From Herpetosiphonaceae bacterium (GTDB lineage Bacteria > Chloroflexota > Chloroflexia > Chloroflexales > Kallotenuaceae), in NCBI GenBank assembly GCA_036374795.1, contig DASUTC010000237.1:1-43319 (forward strand): 43,319 nt of DNA. Reading direction: 5' to 3'. The stretch's first letter is position 1, and every line of letters begins with the position of its first letter. The notes under the pieces were generated by a model, which saw nothing but the letters and a program-made list of their open reading frames with translations, was not told where the DNA came from and did not search any database. The position numbers were made by a program, and so were the translations under genes. Below, one piece after another: positions 19,843 to 22,951 of this stretch.

Positions 19843-20532
19843 TTATGCCGACTGAAGCTGTTTGTGAAAGAAGGCCAGCACGCGCTGCCAGGCATCGGCG
19901 GCGGCTGCCGGATCGTAGTGCTCAGGGCGCGTATCGTTGAAGAAGGCATGGTCCGCCTGCTCATAGACCACGATCTCATGCGGCACGTCGGCGCGCTGCC
20001 AGACCTCGCGCTTGTGCTCGATCACTTCCGGCAGAATGCCCTGATCGCGGCCACCGTACAGCGCCAGGACCGGACAGCCGATCGCCATCAGCAGCGCGTC
20101 GTCCAGCCGTCTGCCGTCGTAGAACGCAACCACCGCGTCGATGCGCGGCGTTTTGGAGCCCAGCACCAGCGCGAGCGATCCGCCCATGCAAAAGCCGACC
20201 GCGCCGATGCGCTGTACCTCCGCGCGACCGCACAGATAGTTGACCGCCGCGACGATCTCCTGAACGGCACGCGACATATCCAGGCCCATCGCCAGCTTGC
20301 GCGCCTCGTCGGGCTCGGTTGCCACCTGTCCATGATACAGATCCGGCGCAAGCGCGACAAATCCGGCGGCGGCAAAGCGATCGGCAATCGCTTTGATGTC
20401 GTCGGTCAGGCCCCACCACTCCTGAATCACGATCACCGCCGGAACCGAGCCGCTCCCGGCGGGCCGAGCCAGGTAGCCGCTGCCCTGCGTCTCATCCGAC
20501 GTAAACGCGATCATCTCTCCTATCTCTGCCAT
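19843..20532 (-). CDS. Dienelactone hydrolase family protein
   Basis: 229 aa from the ATG at 20532, which has GGAGG 6 nt upstream. The longer open frame upstream is made of heptamer repeats and is not coding. The alpha/beta hydrolase fold shows IVIQEWWGL (the Glu-Trp-Trp motif of dienelactone hydrolases), a Cys nucleophile in GFCMGG, Asp in YGGRDQGI and His in ADHAFFND. The Cys-Asp-His triad and length match the family, which opens cyclic lactones. The true substrate is unknown. It is the first gene of a two-gene unit with the UPF0173 hydrolase and is divergent from the Dps cluster. Confidence 0.9.
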   Translation of the reverse strand: MAEIGEMIAFTSDETQGSGYLARPAGSGSVPAVIVIQEWWGLTDDIKAIADRFAAAGFVALAPDLYHGQVATEPDEARKLAMGLDMSRAVQEIVAAVNYLCGRAEVQRIGAVGFCMGGSLALVLGSKTPRIDAVVAFYDGRRLDDALLMAIGCPVLALYGGRDQGILPEVIEHKREVWQRADVPHEIVVYEQADHAFFNDTRPEHYDPAAAADAWQRVLAFFHKQLQSA

Positions 20533-20545
20533 CTGGCACCTCCGT

Positions 20546-20601
20546 GTTCCAAGTTTCGAGTTCCAAGTTTCAAGTTCCAAGTTCCAGGCTTCGAGTTCTC
20601 C
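20546..20601. repeat. Tandem heptamer array GTTCCAA/GTTTCAA
   Basis: Eight consecutive 7-nt units: GTTCCAA, GTTTCGA, GTTCCAA, GTTTCAA, GTTCCAA, GTTCCAG, GCTTCGA and GTTCTCC. The array starts 14 nt upstream of the dienelactone hydrolase ATG, on the leader side of its ribosome binding site, and ends about 80 nt before the first dps gene. Confidence 0.85.
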
Positions 20602-20678
20602 TGTTCTCTCGTCCTCGCGATGTGGCATACAAGTTGCTGCTGAAATCGAGAGCCTCTAGCGCAAAGGAGTGTGCATGT

Positions 20679-21269
20679 ATGGTCATGCGCCAGTATGAAA
20701 TTGAGCAAGAATTCGACACGGTTGAGTCCAACGCGCTGATGATCGACACGGACGTTGCCAGGCAGGTGATCGCTGCGCTCAACCAGCATCTCGCCAGCTT
20801 GTACGCGCTACATCATCAATACCACAAACACCAGTGGGTTGTCGAGGGGCCGCAGTTCCGCGAGCTGGAGCAGCTTTTCTCGATGCACGCCGAGCAAGTC
20901 GAGCTGGCGGCGGTCGAGATTGGCGAGCGCGTGAACGCGCTGGGCGGCGTGCCGGCGGCGACGATGCGCAAGCAGGTTGAGCTGTCGTATCTGCAAGAAG
21001 AGCCCGATGGCATCCTGGGCATTCGCGACATGCTGGCGCGCGATGTCGAGGCCGAGCGGACCATCGCCACGAAGCTGCGCGAGCATATCCGCCTCGTCAC
21101 CGATCTGGGCGAGTACGGCACCGAGGATCTGCTGAAGCAAACGCTGCAAGACACCGAAAAGCGCGCCGCGTTCGTCCAGAAGCACCTGGAGCGCGAAAGC
21201 CTGGATCGCGGCCTGGTGGGATCGCAGCCCGACGCGCGTAAAGTGGACGCGACGATCGACAAGCAGTAG
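20679..21269 (+). CDS. Dps-like protein with degenerate ferroxidase site (paralogue 1)
   Basis: 196 aa from ATG 20679, with AAGGAG 9 nt upstream. The four-helix Dps pattern is clear (LYALHHQYHKHQWVVEGPQF, ERVNALGGVP, LREHIRLVTDLGEYGTEDLL). Aligned with E. coli Dps, four of the five ferroxidase ligands are replaced: His51 by Gln52, His63 by Glu64, Asp67 by Ser68 and Asp78 by Val79. Only Glu82 (Glu83 here) remains. Iron oxidation by this subunit is therefore unlikely. The two downstream paralogues keep the site. It may bind DNA or mix into hetero-oligomers. The basic C-terminal tail (DARKVDATIDKQ) is short. It is the first gene of a three-dps row with gaps of 16 and 11 nt. Confidence 0.85.
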   Translation: MVMRQYEIEQEFDTVESNALMIDTDVARQVIAALNQHLASLYALHHQYHKHQWVVEGPQFRELEQLFSMHAEQVELAAVEIGERVNALGGVPAATMRKQVELSYLQEEPDGILGIRDMLARDVEAERTIATKLREHIRLVTDLGEYGTEDLLKQTLQDTEKRAAFVQKHLERESLDRGLVGSQPDARKVDATIDKQ

Positions 21270-21285
21270 CAAGGAGCCTCGTACG

Positions 21286-21852
21286 ATGACTCAAGCAGAG
21301 CGTATGCCGGAGATTCGGCAGCAACCGAACGAAATCATCGACAATCCGCTCAGGCTCAACCGCGACACCGCCCAGCAGCTCATCGAGGCGCTCAACAGCG
21401 ATGTCGCCAGCCTGTTCGTGCTGTTCCACCAATACCAGAAGCACCACTGGGTGGCTGAGGGGCCGCAGTTCCGCGACATTCACCTGATGCTGGAAGAGCA
21501 CTACACCGCCACCCAGATACAGGCCGACGCCTTTGCCGAGCGGATCGTCACCCTGGGCGGCGTGCCCGTCAGCGGCCCGACCGCGCAGCTTAAGCGCGGC
21601 TATATCGCCGAGGAGCCGGAGGGCATTCTGGATCTGCGCCAGATGCTATCGAACGATCTCAAGGCCAACCAGCAGATTTTGATCAGGCTGCGCGAGCATA
21701 TCAAGCTGGCGCGCGACCTCGGCGATTACGGCACCGAGCAGATGCTCAAGCGCCACCTGCGGGAGCAGGAGTTCCGCACGCAGGACATCATGCACCTGCT
21801 TGAGCACGAGACGCTCGACGAGGTGCTGGCGGGCGGCAAAAAGCAGCAGTAA
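21286..21852 (+). CDS. dps: Dps family DNA-binding ferritin-like protein (paralogue 2)
   Basis: 188 aa. The Dps signature HHWVAEGPQFRDIHLMLEEHY and FAERIVTLGGVP is present. The ferroxidase ligands by alignment are His54, His66, Glu70 (Asp in E. coli), Asp81 and Glu85, so the site looks functional with one conservative change. Dps proteins form 12-mers that oxidise Fe(II) with peroxide and shield DNA. AAGGAG stands 10 nt before the ATG. The gene begins 16 nt after paralogue 1 and ends 11 nt before paralogue 3. The N-terminal 20 residues are polar (MTQAERMPEIRQQPNE) and may contact DNA. Confidence 0.92.
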   Translation: MTQAERMPEIRQQPNEIIDNPLRLNRDTAQQLIEALNSDVASLFVLFHQYQKHHWVAEGPQFRDIHLMLEEHYTATQIQADAFAERIVTLGGVPVSGPTAQLKRGYIAEEPEGILDLRQMLSNDLKANQQILIRLREHIKLARDLGDYGTEQMLKRHLREQEFRTQDIMHLLEHETLDEVLAGGKKQQ

Positions 21853-21863
21853 GCGGAGGATCT

Positions 21864-22409
21864 ATGGCAACGCAACGCGAAGTGCGCCAGGAGTCCAACG
21901 TCGTGCGCGATAATCCGTTTGGCCTGCCGCAGGGCACGGCCAGCCAGATCGTCGCGGCGCTGAACGAGGACCTGGCGAGCATGTTCACGCTCTATCACCA
22001 GTATCATAAACATCACTGGATCGTCGAGGGCGCGCAATTTCTGGAGCTGCATCTGCTGCTGGAAGAGCACTACACGCAGCTTCACACCCAGTTCGACGCG
22101 GTCGCCGAGCGGCTCGTCGCGCTGGGCGGGCTGCCCGTCAGCGGCCCGACCGAGATCGAGCGGCATGCGTACATCAAGCACGAGCCGGAGGGCATGTTCG
22201 ATCTGCGCGAGATGATCAGGCATGATGTCGAGGCGGAATGCGAGATCGCCACCAGGATGCGCGAGCATATCGGCCTCGCCAACCGGCTGGGCGACTACGG
22301 CACCGAGTCGCTGCTCAAGCAGTTCCTCGAAGAGGGCGAGAAGCGCGCGGCCTTCCTCGAAAAGCATCTGATGCGCGAAAGCCTGAGCCGACATATTCCT
22401 ACCGAGTAG
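21864..22409 (+). CDS. dps: Dps family DNA-binding ferritin-like protein (paralogue 3)
   Basis: 181 aa. HHWIVEGAQFLELHLLLEEHY and VAERLVALGGLPVSGPTEI give the family. Ligands by alignment are His51, His63, Glu67, Asp78 and Glu82, the same set as paralogue 2. GCGGAGGAT precedes the ATG. It is the last gene of the dps row. Thioredoxin follows after 93 nt with its own promoter. Sequence similarity to paralogue 2 is higher than to paralogue 1, which suggests an early split of paralogue 1 and a later duplication. Confidence 0.92.
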   Translation: MATQREVRQESNVVRDNPFGLPQGTASQIVAALNEDLASMFTLYHQYHKHHWIVEGAQFLELHLLLEEHYTQLHTQFDAVAERLVALGGLPVSGPTEIERHAYIKHEPEGMFDLREMIRHDVEAECEIATRMREHIGLANRLGDYGTESLLKQFLEEGEKRAAFLEKHLMRESLSRHIPTE

Positions 22410-22443
22410 GCTAAACGGCTTACTTTTGGTAAGCAACGGATAA

Positions 22444-22452
22444 TGGTACAAT
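22444..22452 (+). promoter_or_regulatory. Extended -10 promoter of trxA
   Basis: TGGTACAAT ends 50 nt before the trxA ATG. The small palindrome CTTAC-TTTTG-GTAAG (22419-22433) lies just upstream, in the -35 region, and could be an operator. A -35 hexamer is not clear. Confidence 0.6.
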
Positions 22453-22502
22453 AGATGCGTAGCTGTGAGTCGCTGGAAGATCCACAGCTTGAGGAGGTAA
22501 CA

Positions 22503-22832
22503 ATGGCAGGCAAAACGGTCGCAGTGACCGACGCGGATTTTGAGCAGACTGTGCTGAAATCGGACAAGCCCGTAATCGTCGATTTTTGGGCACCCTGGTG
22601 CGGCCCATGCCGCGCGGTAGCGCCGATCCTCGAAGAGCTTGCGGGCGAATACGATGGCAAAGTGGTGATCGCCAAGGTCAACACCGACGAGCAGCAGCGC
22701 TACGCCTCGCAGCTCGGCATCATGGCGATCCCGACGCTGATTATGTTCAAGAACGGCAAGGAAGTCGATCGCATCCAGGGCGCGGGTCCGAAATCATACT
22801 ACGTGCCGCGCATCGAGAAGCTCCTGGGCTAG
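22503..22832 (+). CDS. trxA: Thioredoxin
   Basis: 109 aa, standard thioredoxin length. The active site WCGPC is at residues 32-36 (VDFWAPWCGPCRAVAPILEEL). The cis-Pro lies in MAIPTLIMFKNGKEVD. It reduces protein disulfides in the cytosol, recycled by thioredoxin reductase, which is not in the window. The start at 22503 has AGGAGG 5 nt upstream, so the 16 extra residues from 22455 are not used. Next to three Dps genes it fits an oxidative-stress neighbourhood. The transcript is probably ended by the GAACAAA inverted repeat. Confidence 0.95.
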   Translation: MAGKTVAVTDADFEQTVLKSDKPVIVDFWAPWCGPCRAVAPILEELAGEYDGKVVIAKVNTDEQQRYASQLGIMAIPTLIMFKNGKEVDRIQGAGPKSYYVPRIEKLLG

Positions 22833-22857
22833 ACCCACCGCCAACCTCGCCAGAGAC

Positions 22858-22904
22858 GAACAAAGAACAAAGAACAAAGGGCTTAAATCCGCTGTTCTTT
22901 GTTC
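22858..22904. repeat. GAACAAA heptamer array with inverted arm
   Basis: Three perfect GAACAAA heptamers (22858-22878) are followed 16 nt later by GTTCTTTGTTC (22894-22904), which can pair with them over 11 bp in two registers. It lies 26 nt after the trxA stop and could end its transcript. Confidence 0.8.
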
Positions 22905-22951
22905 TGTTTGTTTCTGGGTTTGGTTTCGAGCTCTGAGTTTTGAGCAGCAGC

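Follow-up and report, generated by a model that had tools for sequence, protein, structure and literature searches.

The cages of Dps proteins are held to be homo-12-mers. Their ferroxidase site, in E. coli numbering, is built from His51, His63 and Asp67 of one subunit together with Asp78 and Glu82 of the partner subunit. A paper from 2026 states that all members of the Dps family possess ferroxidase centres (PMC13319912). One Dps that has no ferroxidase centre, Dgeo_0257 of Deinococcus, has been described (PMC9820295), and mixed cages are already known for ferritin and bacterioferritin, the nearest tested precedent for the locus described here being Bfr1 and Bfr2 of Magnetospirillum gryphiswaldense. 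Several ferroxidase residues are mutated in one of these two proteins, which together form a mixed 24-mer, and Bfr1 requires Bfr2 for stable cages (PMC6529640). SoBfr12 of Shewanella oneidensis is likewise a hetero-bacterioferritin, and tandem-type pairs are present in over 200 genomes (PMC12120770). In animal ferritin, the L-chain is thought to seed the mineral by means of acidic residues on helix B (PMC12532284). For Dps, the literature searched, which was thin in subscription journals, yielded no description of a mixed cage.

The window analysed here, a stretch of 43,319 nucleotides from a Herpetosiphonaceae bacterium, carries at positions 20679-22409 of the forward strand a tandem row of three co-oriented dps genes, named P1, P2 and P3 in order. 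The open reading frames lie 16 and 11 nt apart, in agreement with the spacing given in a preliminary description of this DNA. P1 (20679-21269) encodes a protein of 196 amino acids with a Dps fold and without the canonical ferroxidase site (Q52, E64, S68, V79 and E83 in its own numbering), and a ribosome-binding site recognised from its sequence, AAGGAG, is located at 20664-20669, 9 nt upstream of the gene. P2 (21286-21852, 188 amino acids) and P3 (21864-22409, 181 amino acids) follow on the same strand. All three proteins match the Pfam family Ferritin (PF00210) with E values of about 1e-29 or better (4.8e-30 for P1), and the 170-bit cut-off of the NCBIfam DpsA model NF041388 places P1 (162.4) under and P2 (191.2) and P3 (184.0) over the threshold. 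P1 is 43% identical to P2 and 47% identical to P3. Two more ferritin-family genes are found elsewhere in the genome and are, as judged from their translations, presumably one typical ferritin-like and one YciE/DUF892-type-like gene. A sigma-70 scan of the coding strand from 20400 to 22950 found no promoter, so that the operon structure of the row is a presumed one.

Upstream of P1, at 20547-20600, there are short imperfect repeats of the GTTCCAAGTTTC type, which also span the 5' end of the longest opposite-strand open reading frame, a dienelactone-hydrolase-like one whose true start is probably internal.

At positions 51, 63, 67, 78 and 82 (E. coli numbering), P1 has Gln, Glu, Ser, Val and Glu, whereas P2 and P3 both have His, His, Glu, Asp and Glu, just as the preliminary description had read them. 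The three-way alignment is free of gaps through the ferroxidase region, and P1 also aligns without gaps to solved Dps structures. Codon 52 of P1 (20832-20834, forward strand) specifies Gln at the His51 position, replaced by Arg in two orthologues, while codons 64-83 (20868-20927, forward strand) make up a remodelled helix B ferroxidase stretch that holds E64, S68, V79 and E83 and within which E72, E75 and E80 are invariant. The same description had counted four of the five ligands as lost in P1; this stands for His51, His63 and Asp78, but position 67 varies in intact Dps, being Gln, Gly, Asn, Ser or Arg in many sampled proteins with the other ligands in place, and the telling losses are therefore those of the three near-invariant residues. 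Many Dps of the order to which the window's genome belongs have Gln at the Asp67 position and keep the other four ligands, so this ligand is loosely constrained there, and in NpDps4 an Asn at position 67 binds no metal (PMC6675082). The sequences support the view that P1 has lost the canonical ferroxidase site: the set of inter-subunit ligands (His, His, Asp/Glu, Asp, Glu) is complete in P2 and P3 and incomplete in all four P1 orthologues described below.

A single-chain AlphaFold model of P1 had a mean pLDDT of 78.5, with blocks around residues 61-90 at 89-94 and low predicted confidence in a C-terminal tail of about 20 amino acids. The model superposes on solved Dps with Z scores of 20-26 (5hjh, 25.6; 1moj, 24.6; 1f33, 20.7) and with an rmsd of 2.5 over 170 residues to 5hjh, as is expected of the Dps fold, a ferritin-like four-helix bundle with a short BC helix, and the closest solved structures are the His-type cyanobacterial proteins NpDps4 (5hjf) and TeDpsA (2vxx). 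The offsets at the start and end of the superposition fit the sequence register. A structural alignment that put other P1 residues into the site was named at the outset as the outcome that would overturn the loss; as far as the register of a single-chain model can indicate, other residues would not come to lie there. Chance or misalignment as the source of the missing ligands was ruled out by the ungapped alignment and the superposition that agrees with it.

The row is present in four genomes: that of the window, two from the same genus, and one from a different genus of the family. Two additional members of this family, one with a genome completeness of 80%, gave no match to it. Gene order and strand are the same in all four rows, and the conservation of the trio, a point raised in the preliminary description, was borne out by its joint retention in two genera. 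The intergenic gaps measure 62-134 nt in the three relatives, the short spacing being peculiar to the window's genome. The flanking genes are largely conserved as well, with a thioredoxin downstream in all three relatives and a metallo-beta-lactamase-fold protein upstream in two of them, the contig of the third beginning inside P1. Among the four P1 orthologues, which have no internal stops, position 51 is Gln or Arg, position 63 is Glu, position 67 is Ser, Ala or Thr, position 78 is Val and position 82 is Glu. Nei-Gojobori dN/dS ratios, for which synonymous sites are near saturation in several pairs, ranged from 0.07 to 0.28 for P1, from 0.07 to 0.28 for P2 and from 0.05 to 0.32 for P3; those of P1 were mostly near 0.1 and comparable to those of the other two, and the identity of P1 between rows is as high as that of P2 and P3. 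Of 169 alignment columns, 27 carry a residue that every P1 shares and that no P2 or P3 has, and 9 of these 27 fall within the 20 columns of E64-E83 (Fisher p = 0.0009, to be taken as a guide since neighbouring helix columns are not independent); the same stretch holds 1 of the 27 diagnostic residues of P2 and 2 of the 21 of P3. Because the ligands are absent in all four orthologues and the gene is under purifying selection, neither chance nor decay accounts for the pattern: the loss of the ferroxidase site in P1 is conserved evolution.

In the gap between P3 and the thioredoxin gene (22418-22452), the sequence GCTTAC-N5-GTAAGC precedes GGTACAATA. This combination of an operator-like inverted repeat and an extended -10 box looks like a dedicated trxA promoter. 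The element is conserved in two relatives, the repeat being imperfect in the relative G005, and its exact pattern occurs a single time in the window's genome. Directly 3' of P3 in G005 (L062, reverse strand) there is a strong inverted repeat, GGTGGGGAGG TCTTA CCTCCCCACC, and the dps row there probably ends before the thioredoxin gene.

Within the collections searched, a Dps that lacks both histidines proved to be rare. In a set of about 99 distinct Dps, mostly of the same class, both His and Glu82 are kept except in the P1 clade and in two proteins of Halarchaeum. Searches of 158 genomes from the class and of a sample of 400 from the phylum brought up no further P1-like protein, and a scan of the whole collection returned two relatives only, 78% identical and evidently the same as the related genomes G002 and G003. 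The Halarchaeum proteins are encoded on a plasmid of Halarchaeum sp. CBA1220 (L075:3992-5674) by a tandem trio of genes, all annotated dpsA, with a gap of 1 nt and then an overlap of 4 nt. At the five ligand positions, the first of the trio has His, His, Gly, Asp and Glu, the second Tyr, Ala, Lys, Asp and Glu, and the third Tyr, Val, Glu, Asp and Ile. In the tree, the ferroxidase-less pair falls within haloarchaeal DpsA (support 100/98), apart from the P1 clade (100/100), so complete and ferroxidase-less members have come together in a tandem row on at least two separate occasions. A scan of viral contigs for the Halarchaeum paralogue gave no match. A caution for annotation is that the name dpsA on a gene does not imply iron oxidation.

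The reading put forward here, to which we would assign a probability of roughly one half, is that P1 is a non-catalytic mini-ferritin subunit, comparable to the ferritin L-chain or to the Bfr2 of hetero-bacterioferritins, kept to work with the catalytically complete P2 and P3. The three proteins would be co-translated, and P1, probably in the form of P1:P1 dimers, would join P2 and P3 dimers in mixed 12-mers. A P1:P2 or P1:P3 dimer would have one site without Asp78 and another without both His, which makes the mixing of whole dimers likelier. Fe(II) would be oxidised by P2 and P3, with P1 diluting the number of ferroxidase sites per cage, and the P1 dimer interface would be metal-free and filled by Gln or Arg together with Glu. 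The extra helix B glutamates E64, E72 and E75 of P1 may serve in iron transit or in mineral seeding of the L-chain kind, perhaps binding iron that leaves P2 and P3. Subunits with and without ferroxidase ligands are encoded together, as in the H/L and Bfr1/Bfr2 hetero-ferritins, and a conserved inactive copy that always stands beside active ones fits a shared-cage subunit. The role of P1 in such a cage would most likely be structural or modulatory. The gaps of 62-134 nt in the relatives leave room for separate expression, which counts against co-assembly. Halobacterium DpsA, with both His as well as Asp78 and Glu82 in place, shares the acidic residues E72 and E75, which are therefore by themselves no mark of an L-type subunit; the L-chain analogy drawn from charge alone is a weak one for this reason and is kept as a possibility. 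The mineral-seeding residue of the Halobacterium protein is E154 (PMC12532284), and the alignment of P1, P2 and P3 has no counterpart of it. The fuller proposal, that there are hetero-12-mer Dps whose shells consist obligately of three subunit types with P1 as the L-chain-like one, and that these have arisen separately in Halarchaeum, is more tentative, and the odds are somewhat against it.

The alternative that survives best, though we hold it to be unlikely, is that P1 builds a homo-12-mer of its own with a ferroxidase-free job, such as metal holding or buffering or partner binding, and is merely co-regulated with P2 and P3. The model retains the whole Dps fold and P1 is conserved; Dps 2bjy of Listeria, in which both His are replaced, was deposited as a solved Dps structure, so the fold is independent of the ferroxidase site, and Dgeo_0257 forms multimers despite having no ferroxidase centre (PMC9820295). 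However, P1 was found solely alongside P2 and P3 in the genomes searched, and this speaks for a shared function.

The preliminary description also offered the option of a DNA-only Dps. Such a protein would compact or shield the chromosome but oxidise no iron; for P1, this is now disfavoured and quite improbable. Dgeo_0257 does bind DNA, and more tightly than its ferroxidase counterpart in the same species (PMC9820295), and other modes of DNA binding exist in Dps without tails (PMC10536872), but P1 is acidic, with a net charge of about -13 and a pI of 5.0. Strongly DNA-binding Dps tails usually have three to seven lysines (PMC9103930), whereas the 22 N-terminal residues of P1 include one Arg, no Lys and five acidic residues, and the 25 C-terminal residues are five basic and five acidic, in a tail that is poorly conserved and not conserved as basic. 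P1 thus has no lysine-rich flexible tail.

There is a similarly small chance that iron oxidation persists in P1 at an altered metal site, to which E64, the partner's E83 and nearby His or Glu would contribute. All P1 sequences retain E64 and E83, and atypical centres do exist: the cyanobacterial His-type centre has His in place of Asp78 and adds His164 of a third subunit (PMC6675082). Against such a site, P1 lacks His51 and His63, has Val at position 78 and, where His164 would align, Phe165; none of its orthologues contains the E-x-x-H motif of the intra-subunit site of bacterioferritin-like Dps (DpsL/BrnD), and position 52 drifts between Gln and Arg, unlike a metal ligand; a replacement site of the bacterioferritin or His type was ruled out, the ligands being absent. 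That P1 is a decaying duplicate being lost is very improbable, for although several of its ligand positions hold residues that bind no iron in canonical Dps, the four stop-free orthologues in two genera, with dN/dS mostly about 0.1 and identity equal to that of P2 and P3, rule out a pseudogene.

The trio suggests a bacterial mini-ferritin shell of working and non-working subunits. If this is true, the division of labour of H/L-ferritin and hetero-bacterioferritin extends to the smallest ferritin cage. The number of ferroxidase sites that a 12-mer needs could then be studied in a natural system, and there would be a route to mixed nanocages.

Several known systems can be set beside the row. Bfr1 and Bfr2 of Magnetospirillum gryphiswaldense are, like it, encoded by tandem co-oriented ferritin-family genes, 11 nt apart (PMC6529640). 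The subunits of hetero-bacterioferritins share at most 45% identity (PMC12120770), against 43-47% for P1 and its neighbours; they form 24-mers with haem and an intra-subunit site from two genes, whereas the row is of the Dps type, with an inter-subunit site and three genes, and its co-assembly is a proposed one. Animal ferritin H and L are isostructural subunits with and without the catalytic site (PMC7762939), as would be P2 and P3 on the one hand and P1 on the other, and the extra helix B glutamates of P1, with a putative seeding role, resemble the L-chain; unlike the row, these are eukaryotic 24-mers with an intra-subunit site.

Among Dps, Dgeo_0257 is similar to P1 in being a Dps-like protein without a conserved ferroxidase centre in a genome that also has a ferroxidase Dps (PMC9820295). 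It differs in that it is 11.5% identical to this partner, lies at a different locus number (0257 versus 0281) and binds DNA strongly, while P1 shares 43-47% identity with P2 and P3 and lacks a basic tail at the N terminus. The His-type proteins NpDps4 (5hjf) and TeDpsA (2vxx) depart at positions 67 and 78, as P1 does, but they keep His51 and His63, add His78 and His164 and hence oxidise iron (PMC6675082), and P1 has none of these four histidines. Haloarchaeal DpsA (1moj) and the Halarchaeum sp. CBA1220 trio belong, like the row, to the DpsA branch, and the trio likewise combines a His-keeping member, one in its case, with members that lack both His, two in its case. The ferroxidase-less Halarchaeum pair keep Asp78, and one of them also Glu82, whereas P1 keeps Glu82 only; the degenerate gene stands first in the window's row and the degenerate genes last in that of Halarchaeum, the two rows being of independent origin.
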